From NCBI RefSeq assembly GCF_002835995.1, contig NZ_PJBZ01000038.1, forward strand, positions 1 to 64,000: 64,000 bases of DNA, in the 5' to 3' direction. Source of the stretch: Psychromonas sp. Urea-02u-13 (GTDB lineage: Bacteria; Pseudomonadota; Gammaproteobacteria; Enterobacterales; Psychromonadaceae). Position 1 is the stretch's first letter; every line of letters starts with the position of its first letter. The notes beneath the pieces are model-generated. The model saw nothing but the letters and a program-made list of their open reading frames with translations. It was not told where the DNA came from and searched no databases. The position numbers and the translations under genes are program-made. This document shows, piece by piece, positions 99 through 28,653 of this stretch.

Positions 99-174
99 GC
101 TTCGTTAGCTCAGTCGGTAGAGCAGAGGATTGAAAATCCTCGTGTCCTTGGTTCAATTCCGAGACGAAGCACCA
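99..174 (+). tRNA. tRNA-Phe (anticodon GAA)
   Basis: This 76-nt gene has a full cloverleaf. The acceptor GCTTCGT pairs with ACGAAGC, the D-arm is TTAGCTCAGTCGGTAGAG, the anticodon stem-loop GGATTGAAAATCC gives GAA, the T-arm is CTTGGTTCAATTCCGAG, and ACCA is encoded. The body closely follows E. coli tRNA-Phe apart from the acceptor stem. It is followed 8 nt later by a strong intrinsic terminator, and its 3' end is duplicated in degenerate form downstream. Confidence 0.95.
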
Positions 175-181
175 TCATTTA

Positions 182-214
182 AGCCCAGATAAAGAAATTT
201 ATCTGGGCTTTTTT
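182..214 (+). terminator. Intrinsic terminator of the tRNA-Phe transcript
   Basis: The stem AGCCCAGATAAA / TTTATCTGGGCT (12 bp, loop GAAA) is followed by a T run. It lies directly after tRNA-Phe and is the first of four similar terminators spaced about 100 bp apart. Confidence 0.85.
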
Positions 215-225
215 GTTTCTAGATT

Positions 226-585
226 CGGACTGCGTCCTTGGTTCAACTTTTAATTTGAAGCCCAGAGACGAAGTACCACCATTCAAGCCCTAAGTAATTT
301 ATTACTTAGGGCTTTTTTGTATTTAAAATCGGACTCCGTCCTTGGTTCACTTTTAATTTGAAGCCCAGAGACGAAGCGCCATCATTCAAGCCACAACTAT
401 TCATTTAGTTGTGGCTTTTTTGTTTCTATAACGGACTGCGTCCTTGGTTCAACTTTTATTAAAACCCAAGAGACGAAGCGCCATCATTCAAGCCACAACT
501 ATTCATTTAGTTGTGGCTTTTTTGTTTCTACAACGGACTCATCCTTGGTTCAGATTTTGATTAAAACCCAAGAGACGAAGCGGCT
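226..585 (+). repeat. Tandem tRNA-Phe-tail / terminator repeats (four units)
   Basis: Units start at about 226, 330, 433 and 534, a period of 101-104 bp. Each begins CGGACT, contains TCCTTGGTTCA (the tRNA-Phe variable loop and T-stem), then an insertion replacing the T-loop, then AGAGACGAAG (T-stem end and acceptor strand), followed by CCA-like bases. The first three units end in their own intrinsic terminator (stems at 286-312, 389-415 and 491-517); the fourth is cut short. The T-arm insertion can itself fold (TTCAA/TTGAA, or CTTGG with a later CCAAG). The arrangement resembles the tRNA-tail repeats after E. coli tyrT. No tRNA body is present, so these are not functional tRNAs. Confidence 0.85.
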
Positions 586-608
586 TAAACAGTTCAAAAG
601 CTCAAAGC

Positions 609-829
609 AATTCACCACGAAAGCACGAAGAAAAAGAAGGTTAAAGATTTCCTTCGTGTTCTCTGTGTAACGCAGTGGCTTCGTGGTTATCTTTGTTTTT
701 ATCTTTGTTTCTTTTTTATTTGCACAGCAAGCTTAAACAAGTTCAAAAGCAATTCACCACGAAGACACGACGAAAATGAAGGTTAAAGATTTCCTTCGGG
801 TTCTCTGTGTAACGTAGTGGCTTCGTGGT
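609..829. repeat. Two direct copies of a palindromic intergenic repeat
   Basis: Copies at 609-687 and 750-829 share TTCACCACGAA, GAAGGTTAAAGATTTCCTTCG, TTCTCTGTGTAACG and GTGGCTTCGTGGT. Within each copy ACCACGAAG and CTTCGTGGT are inverted, so each can fold as one long hairpin. A degenerate copy lies at 23424-23455 on the other strand. No open reading frame fits. The stretch 830-1004 after it shows nothing I can name. Confidence 0.7.
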
Positions 830-1004
830 CGAATTTGGTTTTGATAGTCTCATTAAGCCCCTCAAAGCGAAGATGGCAACAAAACTAAGCCACTCCACTC
901 ATTGTTGCAATGAGTTAGCCTCTACACCCGCGAGAGCGAATTAGGGCTATCAATAAGCATAACCAATTCCACGGTCTGAAGTGGCATAGTTAATTTCACC
1001 AAAT

Positions 1005-24177: not shown

Positions 24178-24891
24178 ATGAACACAAGCAAAGAGATCAG
24201 ACAAGTTGTTTTAGATACTGAAACAACGGGTATGAATAAAGATGGCACTATTTATTTAGGCCACCGAATTATCGAAATTGGTTGTGTTGAAGTTATCAAT
24301 CGTCGCTTAACAGGACGACACTTCCACGTTTACGTTAACCCTGGGCAATATAGTGATCCCGAAGCGATAGCCGTTCATGGTATTACCGATGAGTTTTTGC
24401 AAGATAAACCGACTTTTGAACAAATAGCCGATGAGTTTATAGATTTTATTCGTGGTGCTGATCTAGTCATCCATAATGCACCCTTCGATGTCGGGTTTAT
24501 GGATCAAGAGTTTCGTTTTTTAAATAAAAAGACGCAACCCACTGAAGATATTTCGACAGTGACCGATACCTTAGTACTGGCTAAGAAGATGTTTCCGGGA
24601 AAACGAAACAATCTTGATGCGTTATCTGATCGTTTTGGCATCAATACTAAACATCGTGTTTTACATGGCGCACTTCTCGATGCAGAAATTTTAGCAGATG
24701 TTTACCTGCTAATGAGTGGCGGGCAAGCTAAGCTAAATCTAACAAGTAACGAATCAGGTACAGAATCAACGGGAAGAATAGCGCGGACAACACTCACGCC
24801 CTTTACCGTTATCCGCGCGACCGATGCGGAGGAACTTGCACATACTGAGCGTTTAAAACTAATAAAGGATAATTTGTGGCCATCTTCATAA
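24178..24891 (+). CDS. dnaQ: DNA polymerase III epsilon subunit (3'-5' proofreading exonuclease)
   Basis: This 237-aa protein carries the DEDDh exonuclease motifs: VLDTETTGM (Asp, Glu), VIHNAPFDVGFMD (Asp) and HGALLDAEIL (His, Asp). A C-terminal part (residues about 185-237) should bind the alpha subunit. The length is close to E. coli DnaQ (243). It is divergent from rnhA, and its last 16 bp overlap the next gene, so the two are probably co-transcribed. Confidence 0.97.
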   Translation: MNTSKEIRQVVLDTETTGMNKDGTIYLGHRIIEIGCVEVINRRLTGRHFHVYVNPGQYSDPEAIAVHGITDEFLQDKPTFEQIADEFIDFIRGADLVIHNAPFDVGFMDQEFRFLNKKTQPTEDISTVTDTLVLAKKMFPGKRNNLDALSDRFGINTKHRVLHGALLDAEILADVYLLMSGGQAKLNLTSNESGTESTGRIARTTLTPFTVIRATDAEELAHTERLKLIKDNLWPSS

Positions 24892-26150
24892 AAACGTTAT
24901 TTGCTTCTATTGTAATACTCTTTTCCCTTACTTCTGTGGCGCACACTATTTATGCGCCCAATGATATCCCTCTTTTAGATAATCGTTTTCGCATTGATCC
25001 CAAAACAGAACAAGCGACCTTTATCTTTCATCATAAAAAAGGTTATCAACAAGTCGTATTAGTAAAACCCGATGGCAGTAAGCTTTATCAGCAACGTCAT
25101 CCGGAAAGTGTTGCTTGGGTGAGCAATAAAAAACAAGATATTGTTACCATACAAAACCCAATGGCAGGGCCATGGCAAGCCATTGCTGAGCTTGATGATA
25201 ACAATCGCATAAAAATTATCAGCGAAGTACAGTTATCCGTTAATCGTTTACCACTCAAGCTTTATGCACAAGAATACATTACCACTCATGCGGCACTCTA
25301 TTCAGATAAAAAGCTGATGATCAATCCCAACTATATTAAAGGGGCTAAGTTATCCATTTCTTTACTCGGTGGCGCGAGCAATAAAATGGCGCTATATCAA
25401 GATGATGGGAAACATTACGATGAGCTCCCCTTTGATGGCAAGTTAACCGCGCGTTTATACGTGGATTTACAGCCAGGCCGTTACTTATTGCATATTCGCA
25501 CTAAGAACGACATTTTCATTCGTAATGTCAATAAAGATGCGGTGGTTTTTCTTTCTCCCCTAAAATATAAAATAAAAGCGCTCGAGACCGGTAGTGACCA
25601 AGCAAACATTACGTTTACGGTTGACGGTAGTGAAATAGACCCTAGCTCAGTCAGCATTAATGGCGTGCTTAAAGATACCAATAATAAAGTTGTGCAACAG
25701 GTACTTATGCATAGTCTTGATACTGTTTCAGAGTCAGGGGAGTTTAATGCGCCCTTTAAGCTTGGTTACGATATTTATACTTTTTCAGGAAAAGCCTATG
25801 CGACGACTCGCACTGGACGAGAAGTAGAATTGCAACTGCGAGAGAGCGTCTTTGAATTAACACCAAAATTCGAAATGCCAGAACAAACGGCAAGTGAAGC
25901 GCTAGCAACACAAACAGAGCAAACATTAATTGAAGAGACAACATTAGAAAGTTTAGATTCACCTTCACTGTTTGATAATTTATGGATCATCATTGCAATT
26001 TCGATCTCACTTTTATTATTTATTGCTGGAATTGCGTTTTTTCTTTTCAAAAGAAAGCAAAAACAAATAAATAGTGATGATGGAGACAGTGGAGAGCTTA
26101 GTTTAGATGAGTTGCAACCTATGCCGATTGACCTAACGGATAGTAAATAA
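24876..26150 (+). CDS. TIGR03503-like membrane-anchored periplasmic protein
   Basis: This 424-aa protein begins with a signal peptide (about 1-23, FIKTLFASIVILFSLTSVAHT). A beta-rich periplasmic region (about 25-355) follows, then one membrane helix (about 366-388) and a short acidic cytoplasmic tail. It looks like the TIGR03503 family found beside dnaQ in marine gammaproteobacteria; the function is unknown. The start is GTG, with AAGGA 7 nt before it inside dnaQ. The type I membrane layout suggests a sensor or adaptor for envelope material. Confidence 0.7.
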   Translation: MAIFIKTLFASIVILFSLTSVAHTIYAPNDIPLLDNRFRIDPKTEQATFIFHHKKGYQQVVLVKPDGSKLYQQRHPESVAWVSNKKQDIVTIQNPMAGPWQAIAELDDNNRIKIISEVQLSVNRLPLKLYAQEYITTHAALYSDKKLMINPNYIKGAKLSISLLGGASNKMALYQDDGKHYDELPFDGKLTARLYVDLQPGRYLLHIRTKNDIFIRNVNKDAVVFLSPLKYKIKALETGSDQANITFTVDGSEIDPSSVSINGVLKDTNNKVVQQVLMHSLDTVSESGEFNAPFKLGYDIYTFSGKAYATTRTGREVELQLRESVFELTPKFEMPEQTASEALATQTEQTLIEETTLESLDSPSLFDNLWIIIAISISLLLFIAGIAFFLFKRKQKQINSDDGDSGELSLDELQPMPIDLTDSK

Positions 26151-26332: not shown

Positions 26333-26409
26333 GGAGTGGTAGTTCAGTTGGTTAGAATACCGGCCTGTCACGCCGGGGGTCGCGGGTTCGAGTCCCGTCC
26401 ACTCCGCCA
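26333..26409 (+). tRNA. tRNA-Asp (anticodon GTC), copy 1
   Basis: This 77-nt gene has acceptor GGAGTGG / CCACTCC, D-arm TAGTTCAGTTGGTTAGAATA, anticodon stem-loop CCGGCCTGTCACGCCGG, T-arm CGCGGGTTCGAGTCCCG, and encoded GCCA. Four copies are identical at every base I compared. The spacers between them differ completely in sequence, so gene conversion probably keeps them alike. Confidence 0.97.
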
Positions 26410-26475
26410 CTATCTTTGATAGTTGTTGAGTAGATTCTGTTAAATCGAATGTTGAATAGTTTATATGTCCAAGCT

Positions 26476-26552
26476 GGAGTGGTAGTTCAGTTGGTTAGAA
26501 TACCGGCCTGTCACGCCGGGGGTCGCGGGTTCGAGTCCCGTCCACTCCGCCA
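26476..26552 (+). tRNA. tRNA-Asp (anticodon GTC), copy 2
   Basis: This gene is identical in sequence to the first copy and 66 bp after it. No terminator lies in the spacer, so the array is probably transcribed as one precursor. Confidence 0.97.
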
Positions 26553-26627
26553 ACATATATAAACAAAACGGTTTTTCATGCCGACATGTAAAGGTAAAAT
26601 GAGAGTTCTGAATCAGTACTTCGTTAT

Positions 26628-26704
26628 GGAGTGGTAGTTCAGTTGGTTAGAATACCGGCCTGTCACGCCGGGGGTCGCGGGTTCGAGTCCCGTCCACTCC
26701 GCCA
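26628..26704 (+). tRNA. tRNA-Asp (anticodon GTC), copy 3
   Basis: This copy is identical to the others. The 75-bp spacer before it shows no promoter I can recognise with confidence. Confidence 0.97.
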
Positions 26705-26766
26705 ACGTACTGTGGATGAAAATGGTTTATCTCCATTAAAAAAGATTAAACTGTTACACACTCTAA

Positions 26767-26843
26767 GGAGTGGTAGTTCAGTTGGTTAGAATACCGGCCT
26801 GTCACGCCGGGGGTCGCGGGTTCGAGTCCCGTCCACTCCGCCA
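26767..26843 (+). tRNA. tRNA-Asp (anticodon GTC), copy 4
   Basis: This is the last copy of the array. The sequence right after its CCA (ACAGTGTGAAATAGTAAACATG) is repeated with the tRNA tail in the tandem units downstream. The first intrinsic terminator follows at 26871-26895. Confidence 0.97.
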
Positions 26844-27230
26844 ACAGTGTGAAATAGTAAACATGAAAATAACCGCTTAATTGCGGTTTTTCTGTTTTTG
26901 TAATTCGACAAATCCTCACCGTAGAAAAACACTTACATACTCAAAGCAGTGTTATACAGTTATACTCGAAATATTCGAGTCCCACGCTAATGTCCACCAA
27001 CAGTGTGAAAGAGTAAATAAGAAAATAACCACTTAATTGTGGTTTTTCTGTTTTTAGAATTCGATAAATTCCCACCATAGAAAAAATACTTACATACTCA
27101 AAGCAGTGTTATACAGTTATACTCGAAATATTCGAGTCCCACGCTAATGTCCGCCAACAGTGTGAAATAGTAAACATGAAAATAACCGCTTAATTGCGGT
27201 TTTTCTGTTTTTAGAATTCGATAAATTCTG
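26821..27230 (+). repeat. Tandem tRNA-Asp-tail / terminator repeats
   Basis: Units begin at TTCGAGTCCC (26821 inside tRNA-Asp copy 4, then about 26974 and 27131), periods 153 and 157 bp. Each holds TTCGAGTCC, a CCGCCA- or CCACCA-like end, ACAGTGTGAAA, then a terminator stem AACCGCTTAATTGCGGTT (or its compensated variant AACCACTTAATTGTGGTT) with T5, and CAAAGCAGTGTTATACAG. In downstream units the T-arm is preceded by ACTCGAA, which pairs with TTCGAGT. The third unit is incomplete. The remaining gene-free stretch to 27430 shows nothing further. This is the same design as the array after tRNA-Phe. Confidence 0.85.
26870..26898 (+). terminator. Terminator of the tRNA-Asp array
   Basis: AACCGC-TTAA-TTGCGGTT (AACCGC pairs with GCGGTT) is followed by TTTCTGTTTTT. 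Copies follow at 27028-27055 and 27184-27212. The middle copy has changed both arms (CCGC to CCAC and GCGG to GTGG), which preserves pairing and argues that the structure is under selection. Confidence 0.75.
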
Positions 27231-27436
27231 CATAGAAAGTTATAGCGCTACAAAACCACCTCAGAAAAACATTAATCTCCTATCTATTAACTGCCCTATC
27301 TAAACAATAAAATACTTATAAGTAATTCTCAGTCAATTAATTGCACATAAATCATCGACTCTAAAATTTAATTATCCCTTCCAAATTAACAATGCCTTTA
27401 CCCCCTCTAAAATTAATACTCATATAAATTTCAGAC

Positions 27437-27498: not shown

Positions 27499-28653
27499 TT
27501 AAGAAAAATCTAAATCATCAAAACTCATTTTAGGTTCAAGCGTTAAACCGCCTCCCTCTTTTTTAGCATTTTCTTCCATTTGTTCTGCAACGCCACCTTT
27601 ATGCAATTTAAACTTAAGTGCAATATTAGTCGGTGAATCCGAGTTTTTTGTCGCTTCCTCTTCACTAATACGCCCTTCAATGGCAAGTTCAAACAATGCT
27701 CCATCAAAAGTCTGCATACCTAATGACTTAGATTTCTCCATGACATCTTTTAACAAACCAAAATCACCTTTCTTAATCATGTCGCGCACGGTTAATGTGC
27801 CCATCATCACTTCGATAGCGGCACAACGCTTACCATCTAAGGTAGGCACTAAACGCTGAGAAATGAAGGATTTAAGATTATTACCCAGATCGTTTAATAA
27901 TTGCGGACGACGCTCCTCAGGGAAAAAGTTAATAATACGGTCTAAGGCTTGGTTGGCATTATTGGCATGTAAAGTTGAGATAGCTAAATGCCCTGTTTCT
28001 GCAAATGCTAACGCATGATCCATGGTTTCTCGGTCACGTATTTCACCAATCAGAATAACGTCTGGCGCCTGGCGAAGTGTATTTTTTAAAGCAGCGTGAA
28101 AACTACGGGTATCAACCCCTACTTCGCGTTGATTAATAATACTTTTTTTATGTTTATGTACAAATTCAACGGGATCTTCAATGGTAATAATATGACCCGA
28201 TGCATTTTCGTTACGGTAATCAATTAATGCAGCCAATGAGGTTGATTTACCCGAGCCTGTTGCACCAATAAATAAGACTAAACCACGTTTTGTCATGATC
28301 ACATCTTTTAGAATCTCAGGTAAACGCAAATCAGAAAACTTAGGAATTTCTACTTTAATATTACGTGCAACAATGGAAACTTCATTACGTTGCTTGAATA
28401 TATTGACACGAAAGCGACCTACGTTCGAGATAGAGATAGCGAGATTCATTTCTAATTCATGCTCAAATGTGGCCTTTTGCTCACTATCCATAATTGAATT
28501 AGCGATGATAGCCACCTCACCCGGCTGTAAAACATCATCACTTAAGGTTTTTAAGCTACCTTCAAACTTCGCTGAAGGTGGCGCGCCTGTCGCTAAATAA
28601 AGATCAGAACCATCTTTACTCGACAAGATATTCAGCATCTGTTCAAATTCCAT
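27499..28653 (-). CDS. pilU: Type IV pilus retraction ATPase, PilU type
   Basis: This 384-aa PilT/PilU-family ATPase has an N-terminal PAS-like domain (SDLYLATGAPPSAKFEG), Walker A GATGSGKST (about 132-140), the Asp box, IITIEDPVEFVH, Walker B DVILIGEIRD, the His box HLAISTLHANN, and a PilU-like C-terminal extension ending in acidic residues. The length and C-terminus favour PilU over PilT. No pilT is next to it, unlike the usual pilT-pilU pair. It stands alone with its own terminator. PilU helps PilT retract pili. Confidence 0.88.
   Translation of the reverse strand: MEFEQMLNILSSKDGSDLYLATGAPPSAKFEGSLKTLSDDVLQPGEVAIIANSIMDSEQKATFEHELEMNLAISISNVGRFRVNIFKQRNEVSIVARNIKVEIPKFSDLRLPEILKDVIMTKRGLVLFIGATGSGKSTSLAALIDYRNENASGHIITIEDPVEFVHKHKKSIINQREVGVDTRSFHAALKNTLRQAPDVILIGEIRDRETMDHALAFAETGHLAISTLHANNANQALDRIINFFPEERRPQLLNDLGNNLKSFISQRLVPTLDGKRCAAIEVMMGTLTVRDMIKKGDFGLLKDVMEKSKSLGMQTFDGALFELAIEGRISEEEATKNSDSPTNIALKFKLHKGGVAEQMEENAKKEGGGLTLEPKMSFDDLDFS

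Follow-up and report, generated by a model that had tools for sequence, protein, structure and literature searches.

Tandem arrays of tRNA 3' ends and intrinsic terminators behind several tRNA genes of Psychromonas

Behind the tRNA-Asp cluster of a Psychromonas genome we found a tandem array in which the tail of the tRNA gene and an intrinsic terminator are repeated together, and arrays of the same design lie behind several other tRNAs of the same genome. Judged from sequence, the units of each array come from the 3' end of the tRNA gene upstream of it, and intermediates are preserved at some loci. The interpretation that we favour, and consider probable, is that these arrays are of the rtT type: a tRNA end was duplicated in tandem together with its terminator, the 5' part of the copies decayed, and the units were retained as serial fail-safe terminators. 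With arrays behind several tRNAs, with intermediates and with measurable constraint, the origin and purpose of such repeats become a comparative and experimental question. We also note that tRNA finders miss this structured, probably transcribed sequence behind tRNA operons.

The tRNA-Asp array

The window is the whole 64,000-nucleotide stretch that was analysed (G000:C57:1-64000), and all coordinates refer to it. The host is a Psychromonas, its closest named PilU being that of P. ossibalaenae (88% identical). The genome, G000, is a draft of 320 contigs, in which array copy numbers are provisional, and contains 74 tRNA genes (RF00005). The tRNA-Asp cluster is flanked on one side by a gene at 24876-26150, whose neighbours resemble dnaQ and rnhA (Pfam RNase_T and RNase_H), and on the other by a pilU-like gene (27499-28653, T2SSE) in convergent orientation. 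The features of the locus are as follows.

26333..26843, + strand: cluster of four tRNA-Asp(GUC) genes (ARAGORN; RF00005, 70.4 bits each)
26333-26409, 26476-26552, 26628-26704 and 26767-26843, + strand: tRNA-Asp genes 1-4 (ARAGORN)
26821..26900, + strand: tail, trailer and intrinsic terminator of tRNA-Asp gene 4, the parent of the array (TTCGAGTCC at 26821, CCA at 26841-26843, stem at 26871-26888)
26906..26963, + strand: linker ahead of unit A, weakly similar to both the tRNA-Asp 5' half and the degenerate Asp copy in G011
26964..27056, + strand: extra unit A (hairpin, CCA at 26997-26999, trailer, terminator at 27027-27044 with CCAC/GTGG)
27121..27213, + strand: extra unit B, with the layout of unit A (TTCGAGTCC at 27131, CCA at 27154-27156, terminator at 27184-27201 with CCGC/GCGG)

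The initial annotation had described a tRNA-tail/terminator array behind this cluster, and the array is real: a tandem repeat spans 26837-27228 (period 157, 2.5 copies, 91% matches), and terminator-like stems are found on its + strand at 26871-26888, 27027-27044 and 27184-27201. Two of the annotated units are indeed extra units, but the first is the own tail and terminator of tRNA-Asp gene 4. The start-to-start spacing is 156 and 157, which replaces the unit length of 153-157 bp given previously. The T-arm sequence TTCGAGTCC occurs at 26821, 26974 and 27131 and is present too in the three earlier tRNA-Asp genes. Between positions 26100 and 27500 there are seven terminator-like sites on the two strands, compared with 1.1 (s.d. 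1.1) in shuffled sequences.

Each extra unit has a new ACTCGAA that lies upstream of the T-loop remnant TTCGAGT and pairs with it, so that in unit A the remnant forms one arm of a hairpin at 26964-26980 (ACTCGAA-ATA-TTCGAGT). The likeness of the unit tails to tRNA is modest: the local scores are 22 and 27, and shuffles have their 95% point at 18 and reach at most 25. What makes the link between the units and the tRNA firm is that the units match one another and also the gene 4 trailer and terminator. For the linker, local alignment of region 26920-26990 is borderline (shuffle p = 0.039 with tRNA-Asp and 0.028 with the G011 copy). A dispersed mobile repeat was rejected as the source of the Asp units, the array sequence matching only itself within G000.

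The Asp terminators of G000 read, in order, CCGC/GCGG, CCAC/GTGG and CCGC/GCGG. The two-sided change reported in the initial annotation is therefore real, but its direction is likely the opposite of the one proposed there, in which the CCAC/GTGG unit had changed. Of the two relatives having this terminator, G006 has a single copy reading CCAC/GTGG, while G011 has CCAC/GTGG twice and CCGC/GTGG once, this third copy being a G-U intermediate. Because G006 and two of the three G011 copies read CCAC/GTGG, it is more likely that unit A keeps the older state and that the other two units have changed.

The nearest relatives by PilU are G006 and G011 (both 91%). The pilU-side Asp region was taken from 17 relatives, the stretches from G002 and G023 being only 230 and 510 bases long, and no tRNA-Asp was present at this region in G018 and G022. 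Near-full-length degenerate tRNA-Asp copies follow the cluster in six of the 17 (four copies in G003, three in G017, two each in G005, G011 and G012, and one in G007), and G001, G003 and G005 each have one truncated copy between functional genes. A homologue of the array unit outside G000 was found only in G011; the match in G006 is to the terminator region, and the rest among the matches listed are 24-40 bases long. Since homology to its unit is restricted in this way, we take the Asp array to be younger than the Phe and Leu arrays, and it may still be nearly neutral.

These observations also bear on an account in which the arrays are pure birth-and-death noise, with recombination among identical tRNA copies making and losing partial duplicates that have no function. 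The Asp array, taken by itself, is quite likely to be a case of this. As a general account we consider it unlikely; it is favoured by the narrow distribution of the Asp unit, by copy numbers and forms that differ between species, by the many degenerate copies and by the tRNA loci of G000 that have no array, and it is opposed by the Phe units discussed below.

Two further features of the Asp region are worth recording. The truncated copies, which lie in spacers L171 (G001), L175 (G005) and L176 (G003), keep the 5' half of the tRNA, with a hairpin in the D-loop and another replacing the T-arm. Behind tRNA-Asp in G009 (L177), G016 (L178) and G023 (L179) there is a tandem 9-base unit of the TTCTCTATA type in up to ten copies, occupying the position of the degenerate tRNA copies in other species.

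Other tRNA loci of G000 and the Leu locus of relatives

Twenty-five other tRNA loci of G000 and the two in the window make 27; three of these run into a contig edge after 38-78 bases, and the remaining 24 are informative. Tail arrays are present at five (Asp, Phe, Leu-UAA and two Pro loci, on C201 and C283) and single extra tails at two (Ala-GGC and Leu-CAA); 17 have neither. At each locus the tail copies match their own upstream tRNA. The suggestion in the initial annotation of a phenomenon common to unrelated tRNAs is borne out by these counts, such units being present behind some other tRNA operons of the genome. Within the Leu array of G000, the identity is 0.91 for the tail and 0.94 for the trailer and terminator, compared with 0.47 for the linker. 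In the two Pro arrays, for which there is one comparison each, the terminators are 0.81 and 0.71 identical, compared with 0.93 for the linker.

Leu-UAA tail copies follow the Gly-Cys-Leu operon in G000 and also in G003, G009, G011, G015, G016, G017, G020 and G023, but were not found at 13 other Leu loci of the genus (21 were read, one per genome and two for G011). Further repeated short matches are seen at the Leu loci of G001 and G022. The Leu units of G003, G015, G016, G017, G020 and others begin in the anticodon loop, and those of several species share the variable-arm sequence AAAATCCCCGCATCTAATTCTGG, which is unlike that of the functional gene. Leu tails were also sought in other genera with an exact pattern, but this is a narrow test, as only 21 of 119 genomes gave any match. 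Among 15 non-Psychromonas Leu loci, the 11 with a readable tRNA-Leu and downstream sequence have no tail copy, and no tRNA was called at three; the remaining one, in G081, has a Leu tail at a contig start with its own gene cut off.

The anticodon loop and the T-loop are usual crossover places of integrases. Unit edges fall at one or other of these places, which would fit an origin in integrative elements that attach at tRNA 3' ends, the tandem tails being left behind as their relics or decoys. We regard this as very improbable. In G000, to which this survey refers, none of the contigs with arrays or single tails (C57, C302, C201, C283, C288 and C306) has an integrase match, and the tRNA locus on C46, which has an integrase about 1.3 kb away, is without an array. 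Furthermore, the units carry the terminator of their own operon, and in every relative whose cluster was read at this location the Asp array or copies occupy the short interval that precedes pilU. The initial annotation had put forward recombination at tRNA ends as a possible common mechanism; integrase recombination as the cause is not supported, the 16 integrase-domain matches of G000 all lying on contigs without arrays.

Constraint on the Phe units

The first array of the window lies behind tRNA-Phe and has the following features.

99..174, + strand: tRNA-Phe(GAA), parent of the array (ARAGORN)
206..582, + strand: Phe tail/terminator array (period 102, 3.7 copies), with the T-loop expanded by a non-tRNA insert

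Phe units were collected by searching with window positions 99-420 and then reading the loci, which gave 48 units in 13 genomes, with 1 to 8 per genome. Together with G002, G007 and G012, whose units were added by model R1 combined with reading or alignment, Phe units are present in 16 of the 24 genus genomes; the unit of G002 retains a remnant of the anticodon arm. The Phe loci of G017 and G001 have one decayed remnant each, and the Phe operons read in G008 and G022 have no units. Model R1, which represents the Phe unit, was run on 295 genomes and scored with stricter filters. Strong matches were obtained in 20 genus genomes, those listed for G001, G008, G017 and G022 being the gene's own tail and terminator, and outside the genus only two other members of the order gave matches, which were weak at about 41 bits. 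On this distribution, a dispersed mobile repeat was rejected as the nature of the Phe units.

The terminator helix was investigated using 22 of the 48 units, picked for diversity. Paired cells amount to 95.1%, compared with at most 57.2% for slid versions of the helix, and eight of the 12 pairs have changed on both sides. The covariation is 0.525, compared with 0.170 (s.d. 0.022) in shuffles. The T-loop insert, which is absent from tRNA-Phe, has a mean identity between species that is higher than the identity at pilU fourfold sites in all 55 pairs among the 11 species with both pilU and units. Insert identity also exceeds the shuffle 95% point (0.61) in 39 of the 55 pairs, and nine of the 16 pairs below this value involve G005; these identities are inflated by gapped alignment, the shuffled mean being 0.50. 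The Phe terminators have thus been kept by two-sided change, and conservation of the Phe insert surpasses that of fourfold sites. Selection on structure, as first proposed for the Asp array, is upheld for the terminators of the Phe units at least. In our view, constraint acts on the Phe and Leu arrays, which are old. The presence of Phe units in 16 of 24 genomes, the two-sided changes and the conservation of the insert are difficult to reconcile with units that come and go without function.

A test for a hairpin followed by a T-run was passed by 33 of the 48 Phe units, compared with 47 of 2000 random window segments. About nine of the 15 units that failed hold a dispersed repeat of about 99 nt instead. 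Strong folding of the tail core as an RNA was not borne out, as the Phe core ahead of the terminator does not stand out clearly from its shuffles (mean z of -0.55, with 3 of 47 below -2).

The dispersed repeat, which has complementary ends (GGATCG...CGATTCC), takes the place of the terminator in Phe units of five species: in G016 at L189 and L298 (G016:C1:218400-219312), and also in G013, G009, G003 and G015. It is MITE-like and present in 16 of the 24 genomes, with at least 24 matches in G000 and 57 in G004 among the matches listed. Directly 3' of the Phe array, window positions 604-875 contain two copies of a repeat of about 142 bp that is rich in CACGAAG, and similar sequence is also found 3' of the tRNA arrays L034 and L044.

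The Phe insert, which follows TTGGTT in the T-loop, resembles the D-loop insert of the degenerate Asp copies. In comparisons with five hand-typed Asp inserts, the best score was reached by 0 of 500 shuffles for G011, 0 for G003, 3 for G007, 7 for G005 and 19 for G012. The shared motif was not found in viral contigs, and ectopic recombination at TTGGTT as its source is a guess on our part. The units might form a genus-wide class of unit-repeated tRNA-derived RNAs. In such a class, 3' portions of the Phe, Leu, Pro and Asp tRNAs would have been rebuilt with one common type of loop insert (about CTCTTTGTTTAAA, following TTGGTT in the T-loop of Phe units and the D-loop of Asp copies), each with its own terminator, and would serve as decoys in regulation or tRNA processing whose copy number can be adjusted. 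We consider such a class distinctly unlikely.

Known systems, origin and function

The rtT repeats are known mainly from one E. coli operon and their role is unclear. In E. coli MG1655 the tyrT repeats have a period of 178 and 3.1 copies, starting 19 bases inside the 3' end of tRNA-Tyr; the tRNA tail closes three of the units, and another unit is found between the two tRNA genes. The Psychromonas arrays have the same architecture as these repeats (rttR/tpr; RF00391), namely a tandem unit that takes in the 3' terminus of the neighbouring tRNA gene. In rtT an insert rich in hairpins interrupts the T-arm piece, and the Phe units are likewise expanded in the T-loop, whereas in the Asp units the T-loop remnant forms one arm of a new hairpin. 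The Psychromonas arrays also differ from rtT in that every unit ends in an intrinsic terminator, in that several different tRNAs per genome are involved and in that no tpr-like reading frame was seen, the nine ORFs listed over 26840-27300 being short (20-57 amino acids). RF00391 did not exceed its gathering score (45 bits) in the window or in any of the 24 Psychromonas genomes, the best match being 16.1 bits. A search of Rfam with the window, and permissively with the array, gave only tRNA above gathering scores, and the best non-tRNA matches were far under their cut-offs.

In passages of the literature on these elements, RtT of Actinobacillus is located near tRNA genes (PMC4986893), rtT is likened to BIME elements (PMC2965389) and covariation is described in the tyrT element (PMC8250186). 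The P. ingrahamii genome paper gives only a count of 86 tRNA genes (PMC2405808, in part). A limited literature search, which is a weak negative, found no paper on tRNA-tail arrays in Psychromonas.

The units might instead be small regulatory RNAs, that is, tRNA-tail RNAs with an intrinsic terminator which come from leaky or processed transcripts and whose copy number sets their dosage. The rtT RNA is described as being freed from tyrT transcripts and as influencing the stringent response (PMC4986893, in part), and 3'ETS-leuZ is described as an sRNA sponge from the 3' spacer of E. coli glyW-cysT-leuZ (PMC7154689, in part). The G000 Leu array belongs to the counterpart of that operon: the operon type (Gly, Cys, Leu-UAA) and the place are the same and the trailer ends in a terminator, but 3'ETS-leuZ is single copy in E. 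coli, compared with up to five tail copies in Psychromonas. The conservation between species of non-tRNA sequence in the Phe units and in the Leu units (AAAATCCCCGCATCTAATTCTGG) would fit a regulatory RNA. We nevertheless regard it as unlikely, as the Leu trailer, compared by eye, has little sequence in common with 3'ETS-leuZ beyond the terminator, the array matches no sRNA family of Rfam and the folding of the core is near random. Pairing with RyhB of the 3'ETS-leuZ type finds no partner in the genus, since none of the 24 genomes has a RyhB match and, to the extent that Rfam can show it, this sponge target is missing.

Intrinsic terminators in series are a feature of strong stable-RNA operons. 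The dual terminators of three E. coli rrn operons are one described example (PMC8144298, in part). The Psychromonas terminators are likewise serial, but each is bound to a copy of a tRNA tail within a repeat unit. Comparison of loci and genomes shows that the 3' stretch of an operon (the end of the last tRNA gene, the trailer and the intrinsic terminator) was duplicated in tandem. A copy that lies behind a terminator has lost its role as a tRNA gene; its 5' part decays or is deleted, in a series leading from whole degenerate tRNA copies through 3' halves to the T-arm/CCA tail, with the tail and terminator staying alike within an array. Unequal recombination between tails may then change the number of units. 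The terminator of each unit would act as a fail-safe stop behind a heavily transcribed tRNA operon, and the tail may be a recombination anchor, perhaps also a processing signal.

Several points sit uneasily with retention as serial terminators. A single strong terminator should suffice, and terminators in series alone leave the kept tail and insert unaccounted for. The Pro terminators are also less alike than the linker, the Phe core does not stand out clearly from its shuffles, 15 of 48 Phe units fail the terminator test and two Phe operons have no units. The probabilities of this reading and its rivals overlap because the same origin is common to it, to regulatory RNA and to neutral birth and death.

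Finally, we note degenerate tRNA copies of another kind in the Met/Leu/Gln cluster L034 (G000:C2:29900-34000), where Gln-like copies and related remnants lie between functional tRNAs. In two of these Gln-like copies the acceptor ends, read by eye, are TGAGA/TCTCA, compared with TGGGA/TCCCA in the gene.
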